Shown here piece by piece: positions 29,033-51,784 of a DNA stretch of 64,000 nucleotides. The notes beneath the pieces were generated by a model. It searched no databases. It saw only the letters and a list, made by a program, of their open reading frames with translations, and was not told where the DNA came from. Numbering within the stretch: position 1 is the first letter of the stretch; each line of letters opens with the position of its first letter. Source of the DNA: a virus; the IMG/VR virus record IMGVR_UViG_3300030104_006433, positions 96,545 to 160,544 of that record. One strand, given 5' to 3'. Position numbers and translations under genes: made by a program.

Positions 29033-29062
29033 TTTGGCTCTCAGAATTTTTTTTATTATATT
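29033..29062 (+). promoter_or_regulatory. Promoter TTTGGCT-N16-TTATATT
   Basis: TTTGGCT (29033-29039), 16-base spacer, TTATATT (29056-29062), 5 bases before the ATG at 29068. It should drive a leaderless transcript of the deazaguanine operon. Confidence 0.8.
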
Positions 29063-29067
29063 TAGGT

Positions 29068-29571
29068 ATGTCTTTATATAATGTTAATGAGAAAGTAGTT
29101 TTAAAAGAAATCAAAAAATTACAACCTTTAAATTACAATCAATTCCGATGGTGGAGAAGATTTGATAGTCCAAATAAATCACTCCATAAAAATACAGATT
29201 TACTTAGGAAAATTCAAAATGGTGATTATGATTTTTCTCACTTTTTTTGGCAAGCTAAATATACTGAATTAGAGATAAATAAAATATATGATGAATGTTA
29301 TCCTGATTTTACTTTATTTAATGAGAAAAATGCTTTAAATGGGGCTAGAAGAAAACGTTTATGGAATGATTTTGAAAAAGATGAAAAAGATAAATTATTA
29401 CAAATTCAAAAAGAATTCTATTTAACATTTGTTATGACAAAAGAAGAAGTAAAATTAGAAATGGAAAGGTTTGGCAATTCACTAGAGAAATTTTATATTC
29501 ACTGTGAAAACAAGTTCGGAAAAAGAAACAAAAAGATGTCCACTCGTGGACGTCCTAAAAAAAATAAATAA
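29068..29571 (+). CDS. Hypothetical protein with C-terminal AT-hook-like motif
   Basis: 167 aa, charged, with many Trp/Phe/Tyr in the first half (NQFRWWRRFD, FSHFFWQAKY). The C-terminus STRGRPKKNK contains an RGRP core typical of AT-hooks that bind the minor groove of AT-rich DNA. It is the first gene after a strong promoter and abuts the next gene without a gap. It may link the base-modifying enzyme to DNA or act as a regulator; function unknown. Confidence 0.65.
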   Translation: MSLYNVNEKVVLKEIKKLQPLNYNQFRWWRRFDSPNKSLHKNTDLLRKIQNGDYDFSHFFWQAKYTELEINKIYDECYPDFTLFNEKNALNGARRKRLWNDFEKDEKDKLLQIQKEFYLTFVMTKEEVKLEMERFGNSLEKFYIHCENKFGKRNKKMSTRGRPKKNK

Positions 29572-30360
29572 ATGAAGGTATCACATGAAGCACCTATTCC
29601 CTATATGAAACAAGTTAGGGGACTAATTGATTATGATTATTGTTTACCCCATCTATTAGATGAAAGTGATGAATATTTAGATTACTTTCAAGAATCTAAA
29701 GAAATGGGACGTTATATTATTATGGATAACTCCTTACATGAATTGGGAGAACCATATAAAGAAGAACGTTTATGGCATTGGCTAAATTATCTAAAACCTG
29801 ATGAATTTATAGTGCCTGATTATTGGCAAGATAAAATAGCTACTCTAGTATCAGCTAAATCATGGTTAAAAAGAAATTATCCTGAAGAAACAACTCCTGT
29901 AGCTGTAGTTCAAGGTAAAAATGAAATGGAAGCTAGAGAATGTTATAGAATATTAAAATATCAAGGATATCAAAAAATAGCATTCAGTTATGGAGCTGAT
30001 TGGTATAAATCTTATGGTGAACAATATATTGAAGATGCTAATGAAGCAGTGACAAAAGCTTATGGTAGATATAATTTTATAAAAGAATTACATGAAGATA
30101 GAACCATTAATAGAACTGATAGTCTTCATTTATTAGGCTGTAATATACCACAAGAATTTAGTTGGTATAAAGATATGCCTTTTATTAAATCAATAGATAC
30201 ATCAAACCCAGTTATACATGGTTTAGCAGGAATAAAATATAATGATTGGGGATTAGATGAAAAAATATCAACAAAAGTAGATAAATTTAAAGGGAAAGAT
30301 GAACATTGGGATAAAGCAGTTTATAATATACAAAAATTTAAAGAATTTTTACCAAAATAA
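29572..30360 (+). CDS. TGT-superfamily transglycosylase candidate (DpdA-like)
   Basis: 262 aa. The order of motifs recalls a tRNA-guanine transglycosylase-like TIM barrel: IIMDNSLHELGE, FIVPDYWQDKIATLVSA, VAVVQGKNEMEARECYR, KIAFSYG, LHLLGCN and IKSIDTSNP (candidate nucleophile Asp). The C-terminal zinc-binding cysteine cluster of tRNA TGT is absent. DpdA proteins are TGT paralogues that exchange guanine in DNA for a 7-deazaguanine. The neighbours are preQ0 synthesis genes (QueC, QueD, QueE, FolE2), which supports this. Substrate (DNA or RNA) is inferred. Confidence 0.6.
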   Translation: MKVSHEAPIPYMKQVRGLIDYDYCLPHLLDESDEYLDYFQESKEMGRYIIMDNSLHELGEPYKEERLWHWLNYLKPDEFIVPDYWQDKIATLVSAKSWLKRNYPEETTPVAVVQGKNEMEARECYRILKYQGYQKIAFSYGADWYKSYGEQYIEDANEAVTKAYGRYNFIKELHEDRTINRTDSLHLLGCNIPQEFSWYKDMPFIKSIDTSNPVIHGLAGIKYNDWGLDEKISTKVDKFKGKDEHWDKAVYNIQKFKEFLPK

Positions 30361-30369
30361 TAAATAGTT

Positions 30370-30594
30370 ATGCAAATAAAAAACGGAATAGAATATCACT
30401 CATTATATGAATACCTAGGTTATGCTGCGGGGCCAGAATTAGGTGATGCGGTAAATAAAGCAGCAATGAAAGAAAATCACAAGTATGTAACACAAAAGGT
30501 TAATCAAGGAGGTTACAAAGGAGAAGTATTTTGTTATACAAAAAACTTTTTAAATGAATTTTTTGCAAATCAATATAAATTATTAAGTCAATGA
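30370..30594 (+). CDS. Conserved small hypothetical protein
   Basis: 74 aa (IEYHSLYEYLGYAAGPELG at the start). Resembles, from memory, a small protein found in T4-like cyanophages; no function known to me. Its stop codon overlaps the queC start (ATGA), so the two are translationally coupled. Confidence 0.7.
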   Translation: MQIKNGIEYHSLYEYLGYAAGPELGDAVNKAAMKENHKYVTQKVNQGGYKGEVFCYTKNFLNEFFANQYKLLSQ

Positions 30595-31463
30595 AACAAG
30601 CAGTATTAAGTTTAAGTGGTGGAATGGATAGTAGTACACTATTACTTCACCTATTAGCAAATGATTATAAAGTAACAGCTCTTAGTTTTGATTATGGTCA
30701 AAAACATAGGGTTGAATTAGAAAGAGCACAAGAATTAGTAGATTATTTAAATAGTAAATCAGATGTAACTTTAGTTAAAAATGATTTAGGAGAAGTTATT
30801 AAACATCTTTTTGAACCTATTACATATCAAACTATTAAATTAGATGGTCTATCTCAATTATTAAACTCAGCTTTAGTAGATGGAGGAGATGAAGTTCCTG
30901 AAGGTCATTATGAAGAAGATAATATGAAGGCAACAGTAGTTCCAAATAGAAATAAAATATTTTCTTCAATTATACAATCAGTAGCACTATCAATAGCAAA
31001 TGAAACAGAATCACCTGTTAAAATAGCAATGGGTATTCACGCTGGTGATCACGCCATTTATCCTGATTGTAGACAAGAATTTAGAGATGCTGATTATAAA
31101 GCATTTTATGAAGGTAATTGGGAAGCTTATAGAGTATCAACTTATACACCTTATTTAGAAGGAGATAAATTTGATATTTTAAAAGATGGAGAATCATGTT
31201 GTGAGTGTTTAGGGATTGACTTTGATGAAGTTTATAAAAGAACAAATACAAGTTATAAACCAATTAAACATTACTATAGACCAGAAACAAATGCATTCAA
31301 ATGGTATTCAGATTTTAAATCAGCATCATCAGTAGAAAGAATAGAAGCATTTATGAAATTGGGAAGACCTGATCCTGTAGAATATGCAGATGAAAATGGT
31401 CCTGTAGAATATAAAGTAGCTAAAAAACACGTAGAACAAATATTAGAAAGTCATGGCGTATAA
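30591..31463 (+). CDS. queC: 7-cyano-7-deazaguanine (preQ0) synthase QueC
   Basis: 290 aa. Converts 7-carboxy-7-deazaguanine to preQ0 with ATP and ammonia. N-terminal PP-loop SLSGGMDSSTLL, then FDYGQKHRVEL, a VPNRNKIFSSI segment, MGIHAGDHAIYPDCR and a C-terminal zinc-site cysteine cluster (ESCCECLG). Somewhat longer than the ~230-aa bacterial enzyme, with an insertion around residues 85-110. Start overlaps the previous stop. Confidence 0.93.
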   Translation: MKQAVLSLSGGMDSSTLLLHLLANDYKVTALSFDYGQKHRVELERAQELVDYLNSKSDVTLVKNDLGEVIKHLFEPITYQTIKLDGLSQLLNSALVDGGDEVPEGHYEEDNMKATVVPNRNKIFSSIIQSVALSIANETESPVKIAMGIHAGDHAIYPDCRQEFRDADYKAFYEGNWEAYRVSTYTPYLEGDKFDILKDGESCCECLGIDFDEVYKRTNTSYKPIKHYYRPETNAFKWYSDFKSASSVERIEAFMKLGRPDPVEYADENGPVEYKVAKKHVEQILESHGV

Positions 31464-31701
31464 ACCAAAGAAAAAACAAAAAGATCAAATAAAAAAAGAA
31501 ATTGAGGTAACTCTAAATGATATAGGTGAAAAAATAACCCAATTAGAAAAATTACCTGATGCCAAACTTCACCAATCAGTAAGTTTTATTAAATCAGGTA
31601 TGAGAATAATAGGATATTGTTTTATTCCTTATAATTTAGGAATAGCAACAGCAATTTTAGTATTAAGTGAAATAATAGGAATAATAGAAGAATTAGTATA
31701 A
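31453..31701 (+). CDS. Small single-pass membrane protein
   Basis: 82 aa: a very basic N-terminus (KPKKKQKDQIKK), a short helix, then a hydrophobic segment at about residues 50-80. It overlaps the end of queC by 11 bases and precedes queD by 1 base, so it belongs to the operon. Function unknown. Confidence 0.6.
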   Translation: MAYKPKKKQKDQIKKEIEVTLNDIGEKITQLEKLPDAKLHQSVSFIKSGMRIIGYCFIPYNLGIATAILVLSEIIGIIEELV

Positions 31702-31702
31702 T

Positions 31703-32185
31703 ATGGCAAAGTATCAATCAACAAAAATATTTGACAACTACTCAGTTGCAATAAGACAATGGAAAGCACAACATTCACATTGTCAGTTATTACATGGATA
31801 TGCTTTAAAATTTAAAGTATGGTTTGAATCTAATACCCCAGATGATGAAAATGATGGATTAGATGATATGAATTGGATAGTAGATTATGGTGGGTTTAAA
31901 GATAAACCTGTTGGAAATGGTTTAAAATCATGGATGAACCATATGTGGGACCATACAACATTAATTCAAAAAGATGACCCATATGCAGACATATTTGAAC
32001 AAATGGGTCAAATGGGATTAGCTAAAGTCCATTTTTTAGATAAAATGGGAGCTGAATCTTGCGCTAGAATAGTATATGAACATTTTAATGAAGTTTTATC
32101 TAAAACAGATGCTGGAAGATGTAAAGTAGTAAAAGTAGAATGTTTTGAGAATGATAAAAATTCTTCTATTTACTATGAAGATTAA
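31703..32185 (+). CDS. queD: 6-carboxytetrahydropterin synthase QueD
   Basis: 160 aa (E. coli QueD 121 aa). It forms 6-carboxytetrahydropterin from dihydroneopterin triphosphate, the second step to preQ0. The catalytic cysteine and zinc region is HSHCQLLHGYALKF, with Cys27 and His31 in place. The canonical C-x3-H-G-H third ligand is Tyr33 here, so one zinc ligand is substituted or supplied by His24/His26. WDHTTLI and VECFEN match the remaining active-site segments. Confidence 0.85.
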   Translation: MAKYQSTKIFDNYSVAIRQWKAQHSHCQLLHGYALKFKVWFESNTPDDENDGLDDMNWIVDYGGFKDKPVGNGLKSWMNHMWDHTTLIQKDDPYADIFEQMGQMGLAKVHFLDKMGAESCARIVYEHFNEVLSKTDAGRCKVVKVECFENDKNSSIYYED

Positions 32186-32200
32186 TATTTATTAGTATAA

Positions 32201-32271
32201 TGTCAGGTCGTCTAGAGGCAGGACTCCTGGTTTTGGTCCAGGCAACGGAGGTTCGAATCCTTCCCTGACAA
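32201..32271 (+). tRNA. tRNA-Gln (anticodon TTG)
   Basis: Full cloverleaf: acceptor tgtcagg/cctgaca (U1-A72 as usual for Gln), anticodon stem cctgg/ccagg with loop ttTTGgt, T loop ttcgaat. No encoded CCA. First of three tandem tRNAs. Confidence 0.95.
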
Positions 32272-32289
32272 CAAAATTCTTTACATAAT

Positions 32290-32361
32290 GCTCCCTTCGT
32301 CTAGGGGTTAGGACGTCAGGTTTTCATCCTGGAAACAGGGGTTCGATTCCCCTAGGGAGTA
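32290..32361 (+). tRNA. tRNA-Glu (anticodon TTC)
   Basis: Acceptor gctccct/agggagt (terminal G-U pair), anticodon loop ttTTCat, T arm ggggttcgattcccc. No encoded CCA. Confidence 0.95.
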
Positions 32362-32374
32362 CAATTATTAATTG

Positions 32375-32448
32375 GGGGGATTAGCTCAGCTGGCTAGAGC
32401 GCCTGCCTTGCACGCAGGAGGTCATCGGTTCGACTCCGATATCCTCCA
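32375..32448 (+). tRNA. tRNA-Ala (anticodon TGC)
   Basis: Acceptor gggggat/atcctcc (one G-U pair), D arm agctcagctggctagagc, anticodon stem cctgc/gcagg with loop ctTGCac, T loop ttcgact. No encoded CCA. Confidence 0.95.
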
Positions 32449-32464
32449 CTAAAAATTATAAATT

Positions 32465-32764
32465 ATGAAAAAATCAAAAACACCAAAAAATTATATCCAT
32501 TGGGTATTCACAGACCACTATTTTAAAAACGGAAGAGGTATAGGAAAATTTATAGGTATGTTATATGGTATATTTCAAGTTATTTATGTTCCACCCCTAG
32601 TTTTAGAAGAATATTATGGAGGATGGATTCCACTATTCCCAGTTATTTTAATGTATATGACCATATGGGGATTTTTAATAGGTATAACTTGGCAACCCTA
32701 TAATATTTATAAAAAGTTAAAAAGAATGAATTGGTGGGATAGGATAGAAAATGATTTAAAATAA
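32465..32764 (+). CDS. Small two-pass membrane protein
   Basis: 99 aa with two hydrophobic stretches (about residues 28-46 and 51-75) flanked by basic, aromatic termini. It follows the tRNA genes by 16 bases and precedes the queE promoter. No family recognised. Confidence 0.65.
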   Translation: MKKSKTPKNYIHWVFTDHYFKNGRGIGKFIGMLYGIFQVIYVPPLVLEEYYGGWIPLFPVILMYMTIWGFLIGITWQPYNIYKKLKRMNWWDRIENDLK

Positions 32765-32765
32765 G

Positions 32766-32795
32766 TTTGTATTCCCCTAAAATAAATGTTATATT
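32766..32795 (+). promoter_or_regulatory. Promoter variant TTTGTAT-N16-TTATATT upstream of queE
   Basis: TTTGTAT (32766-32772), 16-base spacer, TTATATT (32789-32795): same spacing as the consensus with two mismatches in the upstream box. Start of transcription is expected near 32801. Confidence 0.65.
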
Positions 32796-32800
32796 AACCG

Positions 32801-32833
32801 CAGTGAATGAAAAACCACTATAAAAAATTTACA
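32801..32833 (+). promoter_or_regulatory. Weak candidate preQ1-I-like aptamer in the queE leader
   Basis: The 5' leader can form a short stem AGTG/CACT (32802-32805 with 32816-32819), has a C (32815) just before the 3' strand, and continues with an A-rich tail ATAAAAAA then TTT. This order matches the minimal preQ1-I riboswitch layout, but the pseudoknot would be only A-U pairs and the genome is AT-rich, so chance is quite possible. Confidence 0.2.
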
Positions 32834-32835
32834 AT

Positions 32836-33609
32836 ATGTTAAAAAGAATAAAGGATTACAATAAAGTACTCCCTGTATTAGAATTATATAGGTGTGTACA
32901 ATCAGAAGGGTCAAGATTTGGAAGGCCCACAATAGCAGTAAGAACAACAGGATGTACACATAGATGCTACTTTGGAGAAGGTGGATGGTGTGATTCTTGG
33001 TATACAAGTATTCATCCTGAAAAAGGCACATTTACATTTAATGATATTATCAAAATATATGATGATAATCCTCATGTGAATGAAATGATGCTAACAGGTG
33101 GGTCACCTACTATGCATCCAGCTTTAGTTAATGAATTAACACATTTTGCAAATGAAAGAGATATTCTTATTACAATCGAAACTGAAGGTTCTCATTTTCT
33201 TGAAACTGACCACCCCTTGGATCTTATTAGTCTTAGCCCTAAGTTTTCTAATTCAGTTCCTATGCCCGGGACTACCACTCCTAATGGTGCGTTGGTTGAT
33301 GAAAGGATGGTCAAAGTCCACAACCGACTTAGATTAAATAAAGATGCTATTAGAAAAACACTAGATTATCATAAAGATTATCATTTCAAACCAGTATGGG
33401 ATGGTACAGATGAAAATTTAGAAGAAATAGAAGCTTTTAGAATTGAAATGGAAATTCCAAAATATAAAACTTTTATGATGCCAGCTGGAGATACTAGAGA
33501 AACATTAATTAAAATGTACCCTAAGGTATTTAGATTATGTGAGGAAAAAGGATACAATATGACTGGTAGGGATCATATAATAGCATTTGATACAGAACGA
33601 GGAGTATGA
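32836..33609 (+). CDS. queE: 7-carboxy-7-deazaguanine synthase QueE (radical SAM)
   Basis: 257 aa. Radical-SAM enzyme making the 7-deazapurine ring from 6-carboxytetrahydropterin. The N-terminus (LYRCVQSEGSRFGRPTIAVR) matches QueE, and the Fe-S ligands are in GCTHRCYFGEGGWCDSW: Cys40, Cys44, Cys52, a CX3CX7C spacing longer than the usual CX3CX2C. LTGGSPTMHP is the GGEP-like SAM site, and IETEGS and LSPKF also fit. Codon use changes between about 33165 and 33335 (ctt, gtc, ccc, cga) relative to flanks. Confidence 0.9.
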   Translation: MLKRIKDYNKVLPVLELYRCVQSEGSRFGRPTIAVRTTGCTHRCYFGEGGWCDSWYTSIHPEKGTFTFNDIIKIYDDNPHVNEMMLTGGSPTMHPALVNELTHFANERDILITIETEGSHFLETDHPLDLISLSPKFSNSVPMPGTTTPNGALVDERMVKVHNRLRLNKDAIRKTLDYHKDYHFKPVWDGTDENLEEIEAFRIEMEIPKYKTFMMPAGDTRETLIKMYPKVFRLCEEKGYNMTGRDHIIAFDTERGV

Positions 33610-33746
33610 TAGAGGAAGCTTTAGAGATACTAGAAGAAATAGAAAGTAATGTTAGTATTTGTTGTGCCATAACTATGGACCCAGAAGAAGTAGAAGATTT
33701 AATTTTTAAATTAAAAGAAATATTACAAGAATTAAATAATAACTAA
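33606..33746 (+). CDS. Small acidic protein coupled to queE
   Basis: 46 aa, starting inside the queE stop (ATGA). Glu/Leu/Ile-rich helix with a CC pair near residue 19; resembles a small helical accessory subunit. Unknown function; reality is supported by the exact stop/start overlap. Confidence 0.55.
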   Translation: MIEEALEILEEIESNVSICCAITMDPEEVEDLIFKLKEILQELNNN

Positions 33747-33758
33747 TTTTAATATTTG

Positions 33759-33788
33759 TTTGGCTATTAAATAAATAGATGTTATATT
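33759..33788 (+). promoter_or_regulatory. Promoter TTTGGCT-N16-TTATATT
   Basis: TTTGGCT (33759-33765), 16-base spacer, TTATATT (33782-33788), 18 bases before the ATG at 33806. Confidence 0.8.
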
Positions 33789-33805
33789 TAAGCAAAATTA
33801 AATAA

Positions 33806-34249
33806 ATGAATAAACATTATGTAGATTGGAGTGAAATAAATGCTTTAGTTTTTAGGCTATGTCATAGAATAAAAACATCAGAACTAAAATTTAAAAACAT
33901 ATATGGATTACCAAGAGGAGGATTAATACCTGCTGTTATGTTATCTCATAGATTAGAAATTCCTTTAGTTAAAGGTGATATAGGCCCTGATACTTTAATT
34001 GTAGATGACATATGTGATAGTGGAGAAACATTAGATAAGTTTATAATAAAATATCAAACTTTATATTCATTTCCATTTAATCTTAAAACAGCGGTTTTAC
34101 ATTACAAACCTCATACTTCATGTTTTGAACCTACTTTTAATGCTAAAAAATGGGATAAAGATGATTGGTTAGTATATCCTTGGGAAACAGAAAACTCAGA
34201 ACCTATACAAGATTATAAAGTAAAGATTGGCCAAGTTGAAAATTATTAA
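33806..34249 (+). CDS. Phosphoribosyltransferase
   Basis: 147 aa. Type I PRTase fold: YGLPRGGLIPAVMLSHRL near the start and the PRPP-binding motif TLIVDDICDSGETL (about residues 66-79). Such enzymes join a base to PRPP. It is small, with a short hood domain, resembling purine/xanthine-type PRTases. It lies between queE and folE2, so the substrate may be a deazaguanine precursor or a guanine salvage base; this is inference. Confidence 0.85.
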   Translation: MNKHYVDWSEINALVFRLCHRIKTSELKFKNIYGLPRGGLIPAVMLSHRLEIPLVKGDIGPDTLIVDDICDSGETLDKFIIKYQTLYSFPFNLKTAVLHYKPHTSCFEPTFNAKKWDKDDWLVYPWETENSEPIQDYKVKIGQVENY

Positions 34250-34274
34250 TATATTTAAATAAAATTAAAACAAT

Positions 34275-35315
34275 ATGAGTGTAAAAAGTACAATAAAAAC
34301 AAAATTTGTTAAAAAATATGAATGGGTAGGAGATGTAGACTCTTATGTAGAACCAGATTCAAATGAACATTCAGAAAAATACAATGAACCAAATAGGGAT
34401 TATGATTCAAAGTATAAACCAACTAAGGATGACATCAAAACATTCCCTGATTTACAGAATGGCCCTTCATCATTAATACAGGGTTCTCCTGTAGAAATAC
34501 AACAAGTAGGGATTCATAATTTTAGATTACCTTTAAGATATAAAACAAGAGATAATGGTGATATAGAATTAGAAACTAAAGTAACAGGAACTGTATCACT
34601 TGAAGCACATAAAAAAGGAATAAATATGTCTCGTATTATGAGATCATTTTATGAATTTAAAAATGATACTTTTAGTATAGATAAATTAGAAACAGTTTTA
34701 TCTGCTTATCAAGATAAATTAAAATCATTTGATTCTAAAATAGCACTCAAATTCTCATATCCTATAATTCAAAAATCACTAAGATCAGATAATGAGGGAT
34801 ATCAATATTATGATGTTACTTTAGAGGGTGATTTAAATAAACAAGGTGAATTAAGAAAAATAATTCATTTTGATTTTGTATATTCATCAGCTTGTCCATG
34901 TTCTTATGAATTAGCTGAATTTGCTAGGAAATATAGAAACAAAGCAACAGTATCCCATTCACAAAGATCAGTAACTAGAGTATCAATTGAATTTGATGAA
35001 ATGGTTTGGATAGAAGAATTACAAGAAATGTGTGCTAAAGCATTACAAACAGAAACACAAGTAGTTGTTAAAAGAGAAGATGAAATGGCATTTGCTGAAT
35101 TAAATGGATCATATTTAAAATTTGTTGAAGACGCAGCTAGATTGTTATATGAACAATTAATTGAAGATAAAAGAATTAAAGATTTTAGAGTAATATGTTC
35201 ACATCAAGAATCATTACATTCACATGATGCTGTATCAGTTATATTAGCTCCAAATAGTAAATTTTGTGGAGATGTACCTCATGAATTATGGTCAAGTTTA
35301 ATACATATTTCTTGA
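34275..35315 (+). CDS. folE2: GTP cyclohydrolase type IB (FolE2)
   Basis: 346 aa. Converts GTP to dihydroneopterin triphosphate, first step of the preQ0 pathway. Typical FolE2 motifs: VQQ-VGIHNFRLPLRY-like segment (VGIHNFRLPL, about 78-87), KGINMSRIMRSF, SSACPCSYE (Cys207 and Cys209) and SHSQRS (about 227-232). An N-terminal charged extension (about 1-55) is longer than in many bacterial enzymes. FolE2 can use several metals and needs no zinc, useful when zinc is short. Confidence 0.9.
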   Translation: MSVKSTIKTKFVKKYEWVGDVDSYVEPDSNEHSEKYNEPNRDYDSKYKPTKDDIKTFPDLQNGPSSLIQGSPVEIQQVGIHNFRLPLRYKTRDNGDIELETKVTGTVSLEAHKKGINMSRIMRSFYEFKNDTFSIDKLETVLSAYQDKLKSFDSKIALKFSYPIIQKSLRSDNEGYQYYDVTLEGDLNKQGELRKIIHFDFVYSSACPCSYELAEFARKYRNKATVSHSQRSVTRVSIEFDEMVWIEELQEMCAKALQTETQVVVKREDEMAFAELNGSYLKFVEDAARLLYEQLIEDKRIKDFRVICSHQESLHSHDAVSVILAPNSKFCGDVPHELWSSLIHIS

Positions 35316-35341
35316 AACCTATAAAAAAAATAAAGGCTACA

Positions 35342-35443
35342 ATGAAAGAAATTTATGATGCGATGCGTCCAAATGTTTATCGTAACCGAAAAAAATACAC
35401 AAGAAAAAATAAACATAAAAATAAAAGTTATGACAAAAGTTAA
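35342..35443 (+). CDS. Tiny basic protein
   Basis: 33 aa, very rich in Lys/Arg/Asn/Tyr (start MKEIYDAMRPNVYRNRKKY). It occupies the gap between folE2 and mazG and overlaps the preferred mazG start at 35430. Its local sequence is more GC-rich than surroundings and reads as protein in this frame, unlike the alternative N-terminal extension of mazG. Possible nucleic-acid-binding peptide. Confidence 0.45.
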   Translation: MKEIYDAMRPNVYRNRKKYTRKNKHKNKSYDKS

Positions 35444-36125
35444 AAAAAGAACATTAAATGAGTATAGACAAGTAAAAGATGCTTCTTATACCCCACCAAA
35501 AAAAGGACAAAAATTTGAAATACCAAAATTTGATCCCCAAACAGGAGAACTAAATCCTTATTATTTAGAATTAACAGGAAAAGATAGTTTCAATCAATTA
35601 GAAATACCTTTTGAATTCCAAACTGATAATGTAGACTTTGTAAATGAAGTAGAAGAATTTAATAGAACTTTTGGTAAACCGAATAATTATAAACCAACAA
35701 TACCAGCCAAAAAAGAATGGCAATTTGTATATGATTTTATACTCGAAGAACTTGAAGAATATAAAGAAGCATGCGAGCGAGGTGACATCGTGGAAGTTTT
35801 GGATGCTTTGTGTGATATTACTTACGTTTCCCTTGGGAACGGTGTTATGTTACATGGCCTTAAGGATAAGATTTGGCCCGCGTATCAAGAAGTACAAGAT
35901 TCAAATATGTCAAAATCTTGTAAAACTAAAGAAGAAGCAATCAAAACTGTCTATAAAAGAAGTGAGGAACAAGGTGAGGAATGTCATTTTGAAAAAGTAG
36001 GAGATAGATATGTTGTTTATAGAACAAGAGATAGAAAAGTAATGAAATCAATAAATTACTTTAGACCTGATTTACATCAATTTTTCACACCAGAAGAAAC
36101 TGAAGGAGCAATTAAGAATGTATAA
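35430..36125 (+). CDS. MazG-like nucleotide pyrophosphohydrolase
   Basis: 231 aa from the ATG at 35430 (context aaaagttATG, typical here); an in-frame ATG at 35355 would add 25 unlikely residues. The central part has the all-alpha NTP-PPase pattern EELEEYKEACERGDIVEVLD and ALCDITYVSLG (E-x-x-E...E-x-x-D metal ligands), then KIWPAYQEVQDSNMSK. Likely removes or trims dNTPs or (p)ppGpp. Codon use shifts to GC-richer codons at about 35770-35885. The end overlaps the polymerase start by 8 bases. Confidence 0.82.
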   Translation: MTKVKKRTLNEYRQVKDASYTPPKKGQKFEIPKFDPQTGELNPYYLELTGKDSFNQLEIPFEFQTDNVDFVNEVEEFNRTFGKPNNYKPTIPAKKEWQFVYDFILEELEEYKEACERGDIVEVLDALCDITYVSLGNGVMLHGLKDKIWPAYQEVQDSNMSKSCKTKEEAIKTVYKRSEEQGEECHFEKVGDRYVVYRTRDRKVMKSINYFRPDLHQFFTPEETEGAIKNV

Positions 36126-37911
36126 AAAATGTTATGCTAAAAAAATAAAGGGTAGTCTAAATCAATTTGAAATAGATTTGTGGACAGACTCAGGACATGA
36201 AAAATTAGAATGGACTAATTATGCTTATAAAGAATGTCATGAAGCAGATGCTACCCATATAGGTTTAAATGGTCACCCCTTGATAAAAACTCAAAAATGG
36301 AAAAGAGGTGATGATAAAATCCACTTCAATGATATGAAACCTTATCAGAAGTTCCTGATAGAAAAATATGGAACAAATGATGAGGTTTCTACAACTCACA
36401 ATGAAATGTTTTTTGATATTGAAACTGAAATGGGGGATGCCTTAACAGTTGAATATATAGAATCTGCGCCTAAGAAAGTAACATCTATTGCTTGGTATGA
36501 TAAAAGGGTTGACCAATGGGGAATACTAATTTTAGACCCTAAAAAACAATTAGAACATACTAAAGCTAGAAATAAAGAAATAACACCAGTACTTACAGAA
36601 CATGATTTACTAATGAAATTTTTAGGTAAATTAGAAGAAATTGAACCTGATATTTTAGTAGGATATAATAGTGATTATTTTGATATACCTTATCTATATT
36701 ACAGAATGTGTAATGTATTAGGCCCAGAATTAGCTAGAAGAATATCACCTTTAGGTAGAGTAAAATGTAGAAAAGGAAATGAATATTGGTTTAAAAAAGA
36801 TACATTTGTGACTATTGAAGGAATTGAATCTTTGGATTATATTAGAATGCATAGAAAATATAGTTGGGCAGATGAACCAAGTTGGAAATTAGATGCTATT
36901 GGAGAAAAATATGCTGGTGTAAATAAAATTGAATATGAGGGCTCATTAGATAGATTATTTGAAACTGATATTCATAAATTTATAGAGTATAACTTTATGG
37001 ATGTTAAAATCTTAGTTGAACTAGATAAAAAATTAGAATACTTAGCCCTAACAAAAAATCTATCCCATAAAGGTAAACATAATTATAGTGAAGTATATGC
37101 TAATACTAACACACAAGATGGCGCAATTTCAGCTTACTTATTAGGTAAAGGAATTATACCACCAAACAAAGATCCACATATCAATTACAAAGATAGTTAT
37201 GCTGGTGGTTATTTATTTTGTCCTAAAGCAGGAATCTATAATTATATGTTTGATGAGGATTTAACATCACTATATCCTTCAATTATCATGTCTTTAAACA
37301 TAGGTAAAGAAACATTAATGGCTCGTATAATAGATGCTGATGATAGAAATAATAGATTAGGATTAAATGATTTGATTCAAAAAGATCCAAATGAAACCGT
37401 TCTTATAAGAAATAATAAAGATCAAAGAGCTGAATTAACAATAGGTCAATTGCTAAAATTTATTAAAGAAAAAAGATGGACAATATCAGCAAATGGTACA
37501 ATGTATGCTACAAATAGACAATCAGTTTTATCTACAATTTTAGCTAAATGGTTTAATGAAAGAGTAAAATATAAAAAAGCTAAGAAGAAAGCAGCTAAAG
37601 CTAAGGATAAAGATTTAGAGGCTTCATTTCATATGAAACAATATACAATGAAAATTTTGCTAAATAGTTTATATGGTGCCACAGCTTTAAGTAGTTTTAG
37701 ATATGGTAATAGAGTATTATCAAAATCAATCACATTAGCAGGACAAAGAATTATTCAAGAAAGCGCTTTATGTGCTAATAGACATATGAATAAAGTTATA
37801 AAAGGTGAAATTGAATTAAATTTAAATCAAAAATCAAAACCAAATAAAAAAGAAAGAACTAACGATCCTAAAATTGAAAGAAATATAAGCCCAAGACCTT
37901 ATGGAATTTAA
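36118..37911 (+). CDS. DNA polymerase family B, N-terminal part (gp43A-like)
   Basis: 597 aa. It holds the 3'-5' exonuclease (FFDIETEMGDAL; GYNSDYFDIPYLYYR; YNFMDVKILVEL) and polymerase motif A (EDLTSLYPSIIMSLN, Asp381) and motif B (KILLNSLYGA, about 512-521). It stops after the motif-B helix region, before motif C. The missing catalytic YxDTDS is in the gene at 38180. T4 gp43 is one 898-aa chain, so this is a split polymerase whose halves must associate. Confidence 0.92.
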   Translation: MYKKCYAKKIKGSLNQFEIDLWTDSGHEKLEWTNYAYKECHEADATHIGLNGHPLIKTQKWKRGDDKIHFNDMKPYQKFLIEKYGTNDEVSTTHNEMFFDIETEMGDALTVEYIESAPKKVTSIAWYDKRVDQWGILILDPKKQLEHTKARNKEITPVLTEHDLLMKFLGKLEEIEPDILVGYNSDYFDIPYLYYRMCNVLGPELARRISPLGRVKCRKGNEYWFKKDTFVTIEGIESLDYIRMHRKYSWADEPSWKLDAIGEKYAGVNKIEYEGSLDRLFETDIHKFIEYNFMDVKILVELDKKLEYLALTKNLSHKGKHNYSEVYANTNTQDGAISAYLLGKGIIPPNKDPHINYKDSYAGGYLFCPKAGIYNYMFDEDLTSLYPSIIMSLNIGKETLMARIIDADDRNNRLGLNDLIQKDPNETVLIRNNKDQRAELTIGQLLKFIKEKRWTISANGTMYATNRQSVLSTILAKWFNERVKYKKAKKKAAKAKDKDLEASFHMKQYTMKILLNSLYGATALSSFRYGNRVLSKSITLAGQRIIQESALCANRHMNKVIKGEIELNLNQKSKPNKKERTNDPKIERNISPRPYGI

Positions 37912-37922
37912 AACTAAAATAT

Positions 37923-38183
37923 ATGCTGAGTAAACAATCAATTAGAAAAGAACATACCATTTATTTAAATAATGTTCAAATGACTAAAGAAGAAATTATT
38001 GAAATATCAAAAGATTTTAATGAGAAAGAAGAGTTACATTTTAGAAAGATGTTAAAGCAGGGTGGAACACTTAAAATCAAAGAATTAGTGTTTGATATTA
38101 AAAGATATGAATATAAACAAAGGAATAGCAAAGGTGAATTTGATGAACCAGCTAGACCACACAGACCAGAAGATTGGGAATGA
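37923..38183 (+). CDS. Small protein between the two DNA polymerase halves
   Basis: 86 aa, charged (Lys/Glu-rich), ending in a Pro/Arg/Glu/Trp tail. It lies in a third reading frame exactly at the polymerase split and its stop overlaps the gp43B start (ATGA), so it is translated with it. No HNH, GIY-YIG or LAGLIDADG motif. It may derive from a polymerase insertion and help join the halves; unknown. Confidence 0.65.
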   Translation: MLSKQSIRKEHTIYLNNVQMTKEEIIEISKDFNEKEELHFRKMLKQGGTLKIKELVFDIKRYEYKQRNSKGEFDEPARPHRPEDWE

Positions 38184-39139
38184 AACATTTAGAAGACACA
38201 CCATGGTGGATTTGCGATCCTGAAGACGAAAATTATTGTGCTTATGTAGATACAGATAGTAATTATTTTCACGCTGAACCTGTACTTAGACATTTATATC
38301 CTAATTTAGATGAAATGTCTGATCAAGAAAAAGACAATAAATTAGAAGAAATAGCTTTAGCTTATCAAGATATTATAACAGACCATTATGATATTTTAGC
38401 TAAGGAGACATTTAACGTTCATAAATTTCCTTGGTTTAAAGATAGAGAAAAAGACCATTGGTTAGAAATGAAAACTGAATGTATAATAAGATCAGGTTAT
38501 TTTAGAGCCACTAGAAGATATGCTCAATGGATTACTAAACAAGAGGGTGTTGAGAAAGAAACACTTGATATTAAAGGACTAGAATTTAAAAAAGCTAATT
38601 TTCCTCCTATATTAGGTAAATTTTTTAAAAGTGCTTTAATTGATGTTCTAAAAGGAACACAACAAGAAGAAATTGACCAAAGAGTAAAAGCATTTAAAAA
38701 AGAAATATTAGAAGGTAAAATACCTTTAACACAATTGGGTAACCCAACATCAGTAAAAACATTAAACAAATACACAGAAAGAAAAGCTAGGGCTGGAGAA
38801 ATGTTTTCTGTGATAGCTAAAGGAGCACCTGCTTCTGTTAAAGCAACAATAGCCTATAATGATTTAATTAGGTTTTGGAATTTAAGTGGAAAGCACAGTT
38901 ATATAGCACAAGGTGATAAGGTTAAATGGATTTATTTAAAACCAAACACCTACCAAATTGAGGCCCTAGCTTTTTTAGAATTTGATTTACCTAAAAAAAT
39001 AAAAGATTTTTTAGAAGAATATGCTGATAGAAAAAAAGTATTTGAAAGTATATTATTAAATAAATTAGAAGGATTCTATTCAGATTTAGGATGGAATTTA
39101 AATTTAAACCCTTATATTAATAAGTTTTTTGAATTATGA
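38180..39139 (+). CDS. DNA polymerase family B, C-terminal part (gp43B-like)
   Basis: 319 aa from the ATG at 38180, inside the previous stop (ATGA). Motif C CAYVDTDSNYF (Asp24, Asp26) supplies the missing catalytic aspartates. RSGYFRATRRYAQWI and LDIKGLEFKKANFP match the palm/thumb region after motif C in T4-type polymerases. The C-terminus (LNPYINKFFEL) resembles the hydrophobic clamp-binding tail. The next gene is the sliding clamp. Confidence 0.9.
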   Translation: MKHLEDTPWWICDPEDENYCAYVDTDSNYFHAEPVLRHLYPNLDEMSDQEKDNKLEEIALAYQDIITDHYDILAKETFNVHKFPWFKDREKDHWLEMKTECIIRSGYFRATRRYAQWITKQEGVEKETLDIKGLEFKKANFPPILGKFFKSALIDVLKGTQQEEIDQRVKAFKKEILEGKIPLTQLGNPTSVKTLNKYTERKARAGEMFSVIAKGAPASVKATIAYNDLIRFWNLSGKHSYIAQGDKVKWIYLKPNTYQIEALAFLEFDLPKKIKDFLEEYADRKKVFESILLNKLEGFYSDLGWNLNLNPYINKFFEL

Positions 39140-40492: not shown

Positions 40493-40870
40493 ATGACAGA
40501 ATTAGAAGCATTATTTGATGCAGTTATAGTTAAACCTCAAGAAGAAGAGGAAACTCAATATGGCTCAATAGTAGTACCTGATCTAGGTAAAGATAGAAAT
40601 GAACATGGCACAGTAGTAGCTGTGGGGCCTGGAAGACATGTAGGTGGAGTAGGTTTTGTAGAAACTGAAATTAAAATAGGAGACAATGTTATTTTACCTA
40701 CCATAGGATTCACTAAATTAGAACACAAAGGAGAAGAATATTATATTGGCCAAGAAAATCAAATCTTAGCCAGAGTTAAAAAAGAGGTTAATGTTGAAGA
40801 TATTTTAGCAGAAACAGAAGTTACACCAGAAGAAATAAAAGAAATAAAAGAAAGATTAGAAAATGAGTAA
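40493..40870 (+). CDS. groES: Co-chaperonin GroES-like protein (gp31 analogue)
   Basis: 125 aa, longer than GroES (97) and T4 gp31 (111). Recognisable Cpn10 pattern: LFDAVIVKPQEEEETQYGSIVVP (start of the fold and mobile loop), HGTVVAVGPG, EIKIGDNVILP and ENQILARV. The C-terminal 30 residues are an extra acidic helix. It caps the chaperonin encoded immediately downstream, with an 8-base overlap. Confidence 0.9.
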   Translation: MTELEALFDAVIVKPQEEEETQYGSIVVPDLGKDRNEHGTVVAVGPGRHVGGVGFVETEIKIGDNVILPTIGFTKLEHKGEEYYIGQENQILARVKKEVNVEDILAETEVTPEEIKEIKERLENE

Positions 40871-42491
40871 AATTATAGAATTTGGCCCTGAAGCCAGAAA
40901 AAAACTAGTAAAAGGAATAGACCAAATAGCGGATGCTGTAGTATCTACATTAGGTCCAAATGGTAGAAATGTTATTATTTCAAAACAAAATGAAACTCCA
41001 CAATCAACAAAAGATGGAGTAACAGTAGCTAAAAATATATCATTAGAAGATCCAACTGAAGAATTAGGTGTTCAAATGCTTAAACAAGCAGCTATTAAAA
41101 CAGCTGATAATGCAGGAGATGGTACAACTACTTCTACTTTATTAGCTAGAGAAATAGTTAAAGAAGGTTTAAGTGCTTTAGATAAAAAAGCTAATGCTGT
41201 TGATATTAAAAGAGGAATAGATGCCGCTGTAAAGCAAGTTGTAAAACAATTAAGAACAATTAATGAAGATATTTCATCACCAGAACAATTAGAACAAGTA
41301 GCTACAATTTCAGCTAACAATGATGAAAAAGTAGGAAAACTTATTTCTAGAGCTATGGAAAAAGTAGGCAGAGAAGGTGTTGTTCATATTGAAGAATCTA
41401 AAACCGGAGAAACATATCTTGAAACAGTTGAAGGGATGCAATTCAATAGAGGATTTAAATCACCTTATTTTGTTACAAATAATAATAATATGACATCTAC
41501 TTTAAATGATTGTTATGTTTTAATTGCTGATCATACTTTTACACAAGTAAAAGAATTACTACCAATATTAGAAAGTGTATCAAATACAAATAAATCACTT
41601 TTAATCATTGCTAAAGATATAGATAATGAAGCATTAGCTACTCTTATAGTAAATAAAATGAGAGGTACATTAAAAGTATGTGCTGTTAAAGCTCCTGAAT
41701 TTGGAGATAGACAAAAATTAGTTTTAGATGATATAGCTGTATTAACTGGGGGTCAAGTATTTTCTAAAGAAAAAGGAATGAAACTTGAAAAATTTAGTTG
41801 GGAATGGTTTGGTGAAGCTAGAGTTGCTACAATCACTAAAGAAAAAACAACTATTGTAGATGGTAAAGGTAAAGAAGAAGATATTAATAATAGAGTAGAA
41901 GAACTATCAAACCAAATTGAACACTCAGAAACACCATTTGAAATGGAGAGTTTACAAAATAGAATGTCTAAATTTGTAGGTGGGGTAGCTATAGTTCATG
42001 TAGGTGGAAATACTGAAACTGAAATGAATGAGAAGAAAGATAGAGTTGATGATGCTTTAAATGCTACAAAAGCCGCAATTGAGGAAGGAATATTACCTGG
42101 AGGTGGAGTTGCCTTATTAGGAGCTTCATTAAAAGTAGAATGCACAGGTAACCCAGATTTTTTGTTTGGTGTTGATATTGTTAAAAAAGCATGTAAAAAA
42201 CCATTTTTTCAAATTTTATTTAATGCTGGTTTTGATTATGAAGATGCTAGAGAAATATCATTAGAAGTAGAAGATTTAGATTGGGTTGGATATGATATTA
42301 AAAATTATGAAAATGTTAACTTAAAAGATGCGGGAATTATTGATCCATTTAAAGTAACAAGAAATGCTTTAGAAAATGCAGCTTCAATAGCAGGAACAAT
42401 TCTATTAACAGAGGCAACAATAGTTGACAAACCGAAAGAAAATAATATGCCAGAAATTGATCCCGCTGCAATGATGGGAGGAATGATGTAA
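40863..42491 (+). CDS. groEL: GroEL chaperonin
   Basis: 542 aa, essentially full length (E. coli 548). ATP-binding GDGTTTSTLLAREIV and the early TLGPNGRNVIIS segment are intact, the apical domain (EGMQFNRGFKSPYFVTN) is present, and the C-terminus is Met/Gly-rich (MMGGMM). Most phages carry only a GroES analogue and use host GroEL; a complete phage chaperonin is less common. Likely folds capsid or other phage proteins. Confidence 0.95.
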   Translation: MSKIIEFGPEARKKLVKGIDQIADAVVSTLGPNGRNVIISKQNETPQSTKDGVTVAKNISLEDPTEELGVQMLKQAAIKTADNAGDGTTTSTLLAREIVKEGLSALDKKANAVDIKRGIDAAVKQVVKQLRTINEDISSPEQLEQVATISANNDEKVGKLISRAMEKVGREGVVHIEESKTGETYLETVEGMQFNRGFKSPYFVTNNNNMTSTLNDCYVLIADHTFTQVKELLPILESVSNTNKSLLIIAKDIDNEALATLIVNKMRGTLKVCAVKAPEFGDRQKLVLDDIAVLTGGQVFSKEKGMKLEKFSWEWFGEARVATITKEKTTIVDGKGKEEDINNRVEELSNQIEHSETPFEMESLQNRMSKFVGGVAIVHVGGNTETEMNEKKDRVDDALNATKAAIEEGILPGGGVALLGASLKVECTGNPDFLFGVDIVKKACKKPFFQILFNAGFDYEDAREISLEVEDLDWVGYDIKNYENVNLKDAGIIDPFKVTRNALENAASIAGTILLTEATIVDKPKENNMPEIDPAAMMGGMM

Positions 42492-46908: not shown

Positions 46909-47331
46909 ATGAAAGATCAAGTTATAGAAGAAGATAAATTTATAGAAGATTTAATAGAGTCAAGAAAAATAAAGGGATATATTGAAGATGAAATAAACCA
47001 AACAATTACTATTTTTGAAGAAGACTATCCTGAATTATCTAAAGAATTTAAAAAAATTCAAGATGAAATGTATGAAACATTTGCTCGTAAACATATGGAT
47101 TATGGTTTACAAAACATCTCATTAGGTGGTGATTTAACTAAAGAAAATGATAAAAAGTTTTCATTAACTGGATTAGCAATTAGGTTAACTGATAAAGTAT
47201 CCAGATTAAGAAATTTATTAGTAAATGGAAAAAGTTTTGTAAAAGGTGAAGGAATGGAAGACACGTTTTTAGATGTAGCTAATTATGGTATAATTGGCTT
47301 ATTAGTTGGACGTGACAAATGGAAAAAATAA
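46909..47331 (+). CDS. Nmad1 / DUF1599 domain protein
   Basis: 140 aa. The conserved part reads FARKHMDYGLQNISL, then LAIRLTDKVSRLRNLL, KGEGMEDTFLDVANYGIIGL, matching the DUF1599 (nucleotide modification associated domain 1) pattern KH.DYG..N...G...R..DK..RL.NL...E...DT..D..NY. Such proteins are linked with phage DNA or nucleotide modification. It may act with MazG or the deazaguanine pathway. Confidence 0.65.
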   Translation: MKDQVIEEDKFIEDLIESRKIKGYIEDEINQTITIFEEDYPELSKEFKKIQDEMYETFARKHMDYGLQNISLGGDLTKENDKKFSLTGLAIRLTDKVSRLRNLLVNGKSFVKGEGMEDTFLDVANYGIIGLLVGRDKWKK

Positions 47332-48517: not shown

Positions 48518-49957
48518 ATGAATAAAGATTTTAAATATCTACCTAAGGAAAAAAGAAAGAAAATACTGTTAATATGTGATGATATGAGGGTACACTCAGG
48601 GGTAGCTACAGTAGCTAAAGAAATGGTCACAAATACCTGTCAACATTTTAATTGGGTTCAAATAGCTGGAGCAATTCAACATCCTGATATAGGTAAAAAA
48701 ATTGATTTAAGTGAAGAAACTAATAAATTAAGTAAATTAGATGATACTAGTGTTATTTTATATCCAACTAATGGATACGGGGAACCTAATATTGTTAGAA
48801 GTTTAATGAAAATGGAAAAACCAGATGCTATTTTTATTATAACAGATCCAAGATATTTTGATTGGTTATTCCAAATGGAAGGTGAAATTAGAAAACAAAT
48901 ACCTATCATATACCTTAACATTTGGGATGATTACCCTGCTCCTTTATATAATAGTGCTTTTTATGAATCATGTGATGCTTTATTAGCCATATCAAAACAA
49001 ACAAAAAACATAAATGAAATTGTTTTAGGAGATAAGGTTGAGAATAAAATAATTAAATATGTTCCTCATGGATTGAATGAAAATCATTATTTCCCAATTG
49101 ATAAAAATTCTGATAATGTTTTAAATATGAAAAAGAAATTTTTTGGTGATGACGAAGTAGATTTTACTTTGTTTTTCAATTCTAGAAATATTAGAAGAAA
49201 ACAAATCCCAGATACTATGTGGGCGTTTAAAATGTTTTTAGATGGATTACCTAAAGAAAAAGCAGATAAATGTAGATTTTTACTTCATACTGAAATTACT
49301 CATGACGCAGGTACCAATTTAGAAGTTTTAAGAGAATTATTATTTGAAAAAGAATATCCTAATGCTATTAAATTCTCAACAGAAAAATTATCAACAGTAG
49401 ATTTAAATTTATTGTATAATATAACAGATTGTCAAATTCTTTTAACATCAAATGAAGGATGGGGATTAACATTAACTGAAGCAATGTTAGCAGGTAATCC
49501 TATTATAGCTAATGTTACAGGAGGAATGCAAGACCAAATGAGATTTATTGATGAAAATGGAAAATGGTTTACACCTTCTCCTCAAATACCTTCAAATAAT
49601 ACAGGTAAATATAATCTTTGCGGTGAATGGGCATTCCCAGTATATCCAGCTTCAAGATCAATTCAAGGCTCACCTCCAACTCCTTATATTTGGGATGATA
49701 GATGTAAACCTGAAGATGCAGCAGATAGAATAAGAGAAGTATATGACTTAGGATCTGAAGAAAGAAAAGAAATAGGACAGAAAGGTAGAGAATGGGCTCT
49801 AAGTGATGAAGCTGGCTTTACAGCTGAAAAAATGAGTAATAGAGTAATCAATGCAATAGATGAATTATTTGATACTTGGGAGCCAAGAAAAAAATATGAA
49901 ATAATTAACACAAGCAAAAGTTTTAAAAAAACACAAACACATAATTTAGTATATTAA
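48518..49957 (+). CDS. Glycosyltransferase (GT-B fold, GT4-like)
   Basis: 479 aa. Rossmann-like start (ILLICDDMRVHSGVATVAKEM), central NSRNIRRKQ, and the sugar-nucleotide site LTSNEGWGLTLTEAMLAGNP with IIANVTGGMQDQ (E-x7-E type). Transfers a sugar to an unknown acceptor. First of a long modification cluster under a late box. Confidence 0.85.
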   Translation: MNKDFKYLPKEKRKKILLICDDMRVHSGVATVAKEMVTNTCQHFNWVQIAGAIQHPDIGKKIDLSEETNKLSKLDDTSVILYPTNGYGEPNIVRSLMKMEKPDAIFIITDPRYFDWLFQMEGEIRKQIPIIYLNIWDDYPAPLYNSAFYESCDALLAISKQTKNINEIVLGDKVENKIIKYVPHGLNENHYFPIDKNSDNVLNMKKKFFGDDEVDFTLFFNSRNIRRKQIPDTMWAFKMFLDGLPKEKADKCRFLLHTEITHDAGTNLEVLRELLFEKEYPNAIKFSTEKLSTVDLNLLYNITDCQILLTSNEGWGLTLTEAMLAGNPIIANVTGGMQDQMRFIDENGKWFTPSPQIPSNNTGKYNLCGEWAFPVYPASRSIQGSPPTPYIWDDRCKPEDAADRIREVYDLGSEERKEIGQKGREWALSDEAGFTAEKMSNRVINAIDELFDTWEPRKKYEIINTSKSFKKTQTHNLVY

Positions 49958-49958
49958 G

Positions 49959-51272
49959 ATGAGTAAACCAACAGTTATAATAAGTTGTCCAATTGATACC
50001 TACTCAGGTTATGGGGCAAGAGGAAGAGATGTAGTAAAAGCATTTATTGAATTAAATAAATATGATGTGAAAATTATCCCTCAAAGATGGGGAAATACAC
50101 CTTGGGGTTTTATTGAAGATCATCCAGAATGGAATTTTTTAAACCAACATATTTTTAATCCAGAACCTAATAAACAATATCCCAAACCTGATATTTGGGT
50201 GCAAATAACAATTCCAAACGAATTTATGCCTCAAGGACATTATAATATAGGAATAACAGCAGGAATTGAATCAACAGTGGCTGCTGCAGATTGGGTCGAA
50301 GGATGTAATAGAATGGATTTAATTTTAGGTTCTTCTAACCATTCAATACAAGCTCTAAAAACATCAAAGTACCAAAAAAGAGATAATAAAACCCAACAAG
50401 TTATAGCTAATATAGAATTAAATACTAAAACTGATATATTATTTGAAGGTTTAAATTTAAACACCTATAAACCTGTAGAATCAACATTAGACTTATCTGA
50501 TATTAAAGAATCATTTTGTTATCTATTTGTTGGTACTTGGATACAAGGAGATTTTGGGCATGATAGAAAAAATATTGGTTTATTAATCAAATCATTTTTA
50601 GAAACATTCAAAAATAAACAGAAAAAACCAGCTTTAATATTAAAAACAAGTCATAGTGGGGTTTCATATGTTGATAGAGATTTTATATTATCTAAAATTG
50701 AAAAAATAAAAAAGACTGTTAAAGGAAAATTACCAAACATTTATTTACTACATGGAGATTTTTCAAATTCTGAAATTAATGAATTATATAATCATAAAAA
50801 AGTAAAAGCTATGATTAGCTTAACAAAAGGTGAAGGATTTGGAAGACCATTACTTGAATTTACTCAAGTTAAAAAACCAATTATAACATCAGGATGGTCA
50901 GGTCATATAGATTTCTTAAAACCTGATATGAGTATATTATTACCTGGTAACTTAGGCCCAGTACATAAAAGTGCTCAAAATAAATGGTTAATTGAAGGTT
51001 CACAGTGGTTTGATGTTGACCATATGGCTTTAGGTAAAACATTAAAAAATACATATAAAAAATACAAAGATTATATTCCAAATGCTAGACGTCAAGCAAC
51101 ACATGCTAAAGATAATTTTAGCTATGAAAAGATGAAAGAAAAATTAGATATAATCTTAGAGGATAATGTCACTCAAACCCCAAAACAAGTTGATTTAAAA
51201 TTACCAAAGTTAAAAAAATCAAAGAAAAAAGAACTTCCTAAATTAGAATTACCAAAATTACAAAAGATATGA
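49959..51272 (+). CDS. Glycosyltransferase (GT-B fold, GT4-like)
   Basis: 437 aa, starting 1 base after the preceding glycosyltransferase. SCPIDTYSGYGARGRDVVKA at the N-terminus, LTKGEGFGRPLLEFTQVKKP and ITSGWSGHIDFL in the nucleotide-sugar site, and a Lys/Pro/Leu-repeat C-terminal tail (LPKLKKSKKKELPKLELPKL) that may tether it. Probably acts in sequence with the upstream enzyme. Confidence 0.82.
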   Translation: MSKPTVIISCPIDTYSGYGARGRDVVKAFIELNKYDVKIIPQRWGNTPWGFIEDHPEWNFLNQHIFNPEPNKQYPKPDIWVQITIPNEFMPQGHYNIGITAGIESTVAAADWVEGCNRMDLILGSSNHSIQALKTSKYQKRDNKTQQVIANIELNTKTDILFEGLNLNTYKPVESTLDLSDIKESFCYLFVGTWIQGDFGHDRKNIGLLIKSFLETFKNKQKKPALILKTSHSGVSYVDRDFILSKIEKIKKTVKGKLPNIYLLHGDFSNSEINELYNHKKVKAMISLTKGEGFGRPLLEFTQVKKPIITSGWSGHIDFLKPDMSILLPGNLGPVHKSAQNKWLIEGSQWFDVDHMALGKTLKNTYKKYKDYIPNARRQATHAKDNFSYEKMKEKLDIILEDNVTQTPKQVDLKLPKLKKSKKKELPKLELPKLQKI

Positions 51273-51730
51273 ACTCAGATAATTTAATAATATGTCCTAG
51301 ATGTGAGAGTGATGCTTGTTATTCCAGTGAAATAAATGATGAAATAACTAATTACTCTTGCTTCGGATGCGGTTTCCAAAGTAATTCATTAATGAAAAAA
51401 GATGAACCATTTCTAAATGAACAATTAGAAATACTACCAGAATTGTATAAAGATCTTTTATTTGAAGATAAAAATGGTCAAGGATGGCTTCCTCAAACTA
51501 TTAACCTACCTCAAAAAGGTATGGTGTTCGCTAATGGAGCCACAACTAAAAATTGGAAATGGTCAGCTGTAAAAGCAGTCCCTGTTAAAGAAGATGAAAA
51601 ATTAAAATACCCTATCCCAGGTAAAAAAGATGAATATTATGAATTTAGAATGGATATGGGAACTATGAAAATGTTTGAAGAAAAAGATTTTATGGAAGCT
51701 TTAAGTTATATTGAAGTTTTACCTTCATAG
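51269..51730 (+). CDS. Zinc-ribbon protein
   Basis: 153 aa. N-terminal CPRCESDACY ... YSCFGCGF is a four-Cys zinc ribbon (about residues 9-38); the remainder has a Trp/Lys/Pro-rich domain. Overlaps the previous stop (ATGA). Possibly a regulator or protein-binding adaptor; unknown. Confidence 0.65.
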   Translation: MNSDNLIICPRCESDACYSSEINDEITNYSCFGCGFQSNSLMKKDEPFLNEQLEILPELYKDLLFEDKNGQGWLPQTINLPQKGMVFANGATTKNWKWSAVKAVPVKEDEKLKYPIPGKKDEYYEFRMDMGTMKMFEEKDFMEALSYIEVLPS

Positions 51731-51760: not shown

Positions 51761-51784
51761 ACATCAAATAAAAAATAAATAATT

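Follow-up and report, generated by a model that had tools for sequence, protein, structure and literature searches.

A 6-oxopurine phosphoribosyltransferase and a probable guanine-recycling arm in a phage operon for 7-deazaguanine DNA modification

Background

Why should a phage keep a purine phosphoribosyltransferase (PRTase) inside an operon for 7-deazaguanine DNA modification? The question is raised by a stretch of 64,000 nucleotides (the window), namely bases 96545-160544 of the 160.5-kb phage record IMGVR_UViG_3300030104_006433, in which the genes of DpdA, QueC, QueD, QueE, a PRTase, FolE2 and MazG lie at 29068-36125, all on the + strand. Judged by its sequence, the system belongs to an established class, the 7-deazaguanine modification of phage DNA (PMC6884629). 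An earlier sequence-only reading of the window supposed that the PRTase might convert the deazaguanine into a nucleotide and thus feed a deoxynucleoside triphosphate (dNTP) route. Our analysis leads to another answer, that is, the operon probably possesses a built-in guanine-recycling arm, in which the PRTase would salvage the guanine that DpdA frees from phage DNA.

In the literature searched, neither the fate of this freed guanine nor what allows very high replacement has been asked, and no paper was found that ties a guanine PRTase to phage 7-deazaguanine systems; the survey of Cui et al. 2023 lay outside the search, and prior notice is possible. A guanine PRTase that recurs, that comes from two families in one slot and that is fused to an enzyme consuming guanosine triphosphate (GTP) is likely an added component of these systems, and a plausible misreading of it as a deazaguanine nucleotide-forming enzyme is hereby corrected.

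Results and discussion

The PRTase resembles guanine-salvage enzymes

The profile built from the phage PRTases hits the archaeal purine PRTase of P. horikoshii (PDB 1vdm) at 9.5e-25, the S. solfataricus HGXPRT (PDB 4z1o) at 2.7e-23 and E. coli Gpt at 2.5e-13. The structural model of the window protein (predicted local distance difference test, pLDDT, 90) has 1vdm and the S. solfataricus HGXPRT as its top Foldseek matches, and hhalign places it against E. coli Gpt at 98.8% (5e-17). The protein has the type I PRTase fold and the loop DDxxDxGxT for phosphoribosyl pyrophosphate (PRPP), and it shares with the Gpt/HGXPRT enzymes the WxxxPW motif as well; it differs from them in lacking some 20 residues ahead of the PRPP loop and in being housed in a DNA-modification operon. 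Its D71, K101 and W121 align with the base-contacting D92, K115 and W134 of E. coli Gpt. D67, D68, D71 and W121 are invariant, and K101 is present, the Lys position being less uniform in distant relatives. By sequence and model, the PRTase is thus a 6-oxopurine enzyme of the Gpt/HGXPRT type.

Regarding its substrate, the atom to consider is N7 of the purine. In 7-deazaguanines this nitrogen is replaced by a carbon that bears a nitrile or an amide. In human HGPRT, the equivalent residues Asp137 and Lys165 lie 3.6 A and 3.4 A from the purine N7, and Lys165 also touches O6 (PMC2228302 Table 2). The N7-contacting Asp is kept in both families of PRTase found in these phages, the Gpt-type and the HGPRT-type, and because the N7 that it contacts is absent from deazaguanines, its conservation argues, short of proof, for guanine rather than a 7-deazaguanine as the substrate.

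The PRTase is linked to the deazaguanine pathway

The viral contigs were searched by the PRTase alone, neighbours being ignored. All 38 of the loci selected in this way that have at least 5 kb of flank on both sides carry FolE (36 type I, 2 FolE2) and QueE, with QueD in 36 of them and DpdA3 in 29; a MazG gene occurs in 72 of 80 PRTase-selected loci. The distance between PRTase and FolE is mostly below 300 nucleotides, in either order. When the loci were selected by DpdA3 instead, 36 of the 37 with at least 4.5 kb downstream have a PRTase there. The 37th (L172) was at one time taken as an exception lacking the gene and was dropped as such, for the PRTase stands elsewhere on its contig; likewise, the PRTases of L210-L212 were no longer regarded as unrelated to the pathway once their contigs were found to encode DpdA3.

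The PRTases of the 36 DpdA3 loci are of two kinds, 27 HGPRT-type and 9 Gpt-type, which are separated without overlap by hidden Markov model (HMM) scores, and the best PDB matches of the HGPRT-type are solved HGPRTs. The slot beside FolE can therefore be filled from two distinct families of 6-oxopurine PRTase, and FolE and FolE2 alternate there too. These loci are interrelated, so the counts above are not independent events; the weight is carried by separate lineages, namely the window type, immuto, Brevundimonas MaInes, Bhz54/MMDA13 and the PA5oct-like MIJ3. Among phage records, 26 were matched by the PRTase, and all but one belong to lineages whose representative carries pathway genes; many HGPRT-type matches among phage records are short or unannotated and may be bacterial DNA.

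In addition, the FolE of phages Bhz54 and MMDA13 and of 14 viral loci carries the PRTase as its N-terminal domain, with a DpdA-type gene alongside; among the loci examined, the PRTase was never seen joined to QueC or DpdA. Fusion to FolE, which uses GTP, fits a path from guanine through guanosine monophosphate (GMP) and GTP to FolE better than an action on the product of QueC. The suspicion of the sequence-only reading that a PRTase inside this pathway matters is thereby strongly borne out, by recurrent linkage as well as by fusion.

What the same reading made of the enzyme fares otherwise. It would have the PRTase produce a nucleotide of 7-cyano-7-deazaguanine (preQ0) or 7-amido-7-deazaguanine (ADG), to be raised to a dNTP by kinases and ribonucleotide reductase and used by the phage polymerase, alone or beside DpdA. 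The phage does encode a ribonucleotide reductase, a MazG-like enzyme and an Nmad1 protein, and a modified-dGTP route was formerly proposed for Campylobacter phages (PMC6884629). Yet those phages have a DpdA homologue and no PRTase, DpdA is present here and is sufficient in known systems (PMC6884629), and the PRTase, which co-occurs with DpdA, is guanine-type with its N7-contacting Asp kept in both families and is fused to FolE, not QueC; we regard this route as very improbable. MazG and Nmad1, cited as pointers to it, give no direct support, and the Nmad1/DUF1599 protein, although its domain (PF07659) is real, is a less close neighbour than had been described, 11 kb from the operon at 46909-47331. 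A mixed scheme, in which a PRTase of changed specificity would also yield 7-deazaguanine nucleotides for dNTPs while DpdA serves as a second, post-replicative route, seems to us no more credible.

The fusions might also be read as the work of a regulatory or binding protein, e.g. a sensor of PRPP or GTP on FolE, instead of a catalyst. Some proteins of the PRTase fold do act as regulators, and the fused PRTase is a shortened domain (about 115 residues) without the insertion of the MaInes form. On the other side, the PRPP loop DDxxDxGxT and the base-contacting Trp are invariant, and the slot can be filled by either of two families of full-size enzymes, which leaves such a role a slim chance.

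A stronger competitor is general purine salvage, in which the enzyme would make GMP, or inosine or xanthosine monophosphate, from the bases released by breakdown of host DNA and RNA, for nucleotide pools and for the GTP of FolE, with no special use of DpdA-freed guanine. The enzyme chemistry would be identical, the operon adjoins genes of replication and ribonucleotide reductase, and the adjacency to FolE is compatible with a simple supply of GTP. However, the phage PRTase is largely confined to 7-deazaguanine phages (25 of the 26 matched records stand in pathway lineages), and it stays with DpdA3 on contigs in which no FolE, QueD or QueC turned up. These contigs (G010, 121 kb, and G011, 66 kb; L244-L254) carry PRTase, DpdA3, QueF and a formyltransferase, and both may be fragments; if the absence of the three genes holds, host preQ0 is possibly used there and the PRTase kept nonetheless, which would tie it to DpdA. 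We therefore rate general salvage as possible, though unlikely.

The operon and its DNA transglycosylase

The genes named by the sequence-only reading were all confirmed on the + strand by Pfam, PHROG and homology, and the locus has Flavobacterium phage immuto as its closest annotated relative. The features are as follows.

29068..29571, + strand: 167-aa protein, function unassigned; no Pfam or PHROG match, C-terminal RGRPKK
29572..30360, + strand: DpdA (DpdA3-type), putative DNA guanine transglycosylase; homology, model fold, invariant residues
30591..31463, + strand: QueC; Pfam PF06508 (E 4.5e-36), alignment to E. coli QueC
31453..31701, + strand: 82-aa protein between QueC and QueD; no confident family
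31703..32185, + strand: QueD (6-carboxytetrahydropterin synthase); PF01242 (PTPS) 6e-11, phrog_2389 1.6e-33
32201..32449, + strand: tRNA-Gln(ttg), tRNA-Glu(ttc) and tRNA-Ala(tgc); ARAGORN
32836..33609, + strand: QueE, radical SAM; phrog_2076 (QueE-like) 4e-48
33806..34249, + strand: 6-oxopurine PRTase, Gpt/HGXPRT-type by PF00156 (Pribosyltran, 1.9e-7), profile, fold and hhalign
34275..35315, + strand: FolE2 (GTP cyclohydrolase IB; GCHY-1); PF02649 3.6e-71
35355..36125, + strand: MazG/PRA-PH-like nucleotide pyrophosphohydrolase; PF01503 2.3e-11, phrog_671 8.5e-31

The gene set of the preQ0 pathway (FolE or FolE2, QueD, QueE, QueC) is thus complete in the operon by Pfam and PHROG, and the cyclohydrolase is FolE2 here and FolE type I in the equivalent slot of most relatives. 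No QueF, formyltransferase or second copy of the pathway was found in the remaining 160.5-kb record. The 82-aa protein has relatives in 46-72 loci, depending on the method.

That the deazaguanine is inserted into DNA after replication, by a protein like DpdA or the tRNA-guanine transglycosylases (TGT), had been proposed from sequence and finds support in its homology, its model fold and its active-site motifs. The DpdA gene product has no Pfam match; it is 38% identical to the annotated DpdA of immuto and 34% identical over 98% of its length to a protein of Campylobacter phage CP220 (E 8e-36), which relates it to DpdA3. Both the name DpdA3 and its tie to complete replacement of deoxyguanosine (dG) reportedly come from Cui et al. 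2023. Its AlphaFold model (pLDDT 95) has the DNA preQ0 insertase DpdA (PDB 7ui4) as the top Foldseek match, with probability 1.00. D52, D83, Q114 and D209 are invariant among 37 relatives; in the alignment with E. coli Tgt, Q114 falls on Q187 and D209 on D264. The probability of hhalign against one Tgt sequence is low, although the motifs align, so the fold search is the main evidence for this gene. To detect phage DpdA, PHROG and our own HMMs were used, since the TGT family PF01702 misses those of Bhz54, MMDA13 and CP220. The choice of DNA as target also agrees with the tRNA genes, none of which has a GUN anticodon that would make it a queuosine substrate, as had been noted before.

Of 115 testable loci, 63 have a member of the family of the 167-aa protein directly upstream of DpdA3, the median gap being 4 nucleotides, and the RGRP tail is kept in the family consensus. 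With this AT-hook-like tail, the protein is possibly a DNA-binding partner of DpdA.

QueC and the final base

The full route from GTP to preQ0 that had been claimed for this operon stands as far as all four genes are present; its last step is uncertain, because QueC has no zinc site. The canonical site has the form C(x)8CxxCxxC (PMC13329287), and in the window protein all four cysteines are replaced (S, D, S, S), a loss shared by about 105 of 115 relatives. Its catalytic residues are kept: the motifs SGGxDS, YxQxHxxE, VPxRN and YPDC and the residue Y189 are all in the protein, the key positions being kept in at least 113 of the 115 aligned relatives. The zinc cysteines are retained in the QueC of CP21, Seurat, Ares, HVTV-2 and 9g. 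For scale, about 270-320 of the 50,697 phage records contain a QueC-like match. A zinc-less QueC was considered as a companion of the PRTase and rejected, because several loci with a PRTase-FolE fusion have QueC of the zinc type. Since the search for QueF came up empty and QueC carries no fused amidotransferase domain, the final base is expected to be the deoxynucleoside of preQ0 (dPreQ0) or of ADG (dADG).

A model of guanine recycling

In the recycling arm that we consider probable, FolE2, QueD, QueE and QueC would convert GTP to preQ0 or ADG, and DpdA would then, after replication, swap the deazaguanine into phage DNA and guanine out of it, with one free guanine per exchange. Release of guanine is established for the exchange catalysed by the TGT family. 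The freed guanine would be joined with PRPP to give GMP by the PRTase, Gpt-type here and HGPRT-type in sister phages, and kinases would raise GMP to GTP, which resupplies FolE. At the same time, removal of guanine would drive the reversible exchange forward, and we infer that substitution in this phage may become high. The genome contains 47,055 guanines (27,276 G + 19,779 C); by simple arithmetic, if all of them were replaced in each of 100 progeny, about 5 million guanines would be set free, which should be millimolar in a bacterial cell.

Several observations weigh against recycling by the phage's own enzyme. CP220 has DpdA3, and its dG is reported to be 100% replaced by dADG (PMC8306585), yet its complete record contains no PRTase of the PF00156 family, nor does that of CP21; a phage PRTase is thus not strictly needed and host salvage can suffice, and host guanine salvage may perhaps be enough already in other cases. 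Also without a PRTase are Seurat, Ares, HVTV-2 and 9g, which are related to phages in which partial replacement has been measured. Moreover, some contigs with PRTase and pathway (MIJ3, L188, L193, L197-L199) show no clear DpdA, and one PRTase-bearing phage record (L216) shows none of the pathway genes over the examined stretch. The PRTase as a predictor of complete replacement was also considered, and CP220, being without it, does not support this use.

Comparison with known systems

Flavobacterium phage vB_FspM_immuto_2-6A likewise has QueC, QueD, QueE, a PRTase beside GTP cyclohydrolase, MazG and DpdA, and its PRTase is 53% identical to that of the window. It differs by a FolE of type I, a QueC encoded far from the cluster, and QueF with a formyltransferase, which make a preQ1-type product likely, whereas the window phage has FolE2 and neither of the latter two. 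Campylobacter phages CP220 and CPt10, of DpdA3 type, share the homologous DpdA and the reported replacement by dADG is complete in them; CP220 lacks the PRTase of the window phage, and the related CP21 has a QueC that keeps its zinc cysteines, unlike that of the window.

Stenotrophomonas phage Bhz54 and Sphingomonas phage MMDA13 have, as in the window, a DpdA-type gene accompanied by QueE, QueC, QueD, a Gpt-type PRTase and FolE. In these phages, however, PRTase and FolE are one polypeptide, annotated as FolE only in the MMDA13 paper, and the DpdA differs in type from that of the window (phrog_887 in Bhz54). In Escherichia phages 9g and CAjan, a preQ0 pathway and DpdA modify phage DNA as here (PMC6884629), but their DpdA was not matched by the window DpdA in the phage search, and there is no PRTase in 9g or in Seurat, a relative of CAjan.

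In the record of Pseudomonas phage MIJ3, a 540-aa protein encoded about 2 kb upstream of the PRTase (L013:3044-4666) has weak similarity to DpdA3 (E 5e-5), and two QueD-like genes are present.

Surrounding genes

Downstream of the operon lies a family B DNA polymerase split into two pieces, 36118-37911 and 38174-39139, the second with the motif YVDTDS, and an 86-aa open reading frame stands between them at 37923-38183. The break occurs at the same place in most relatives, with inserts of variable length, while the polymerases of others look intact. In immuto, a family A polymerase follows the deazaguanine cluster and precedes GroES/GroEL, where the window phage has the family B enzyme (36118-39139); GroES and GroEL are encoded here at 40493-42491. 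A cluster of glycosyltransferases and methyltransferases at 48518-56628, including a FkbM-GT2 fusion, possibly serves surface or virion glycosylation. At 61456-62839, a PrsW-like membrane protease adjoins a DOT1-like methyltransferase.

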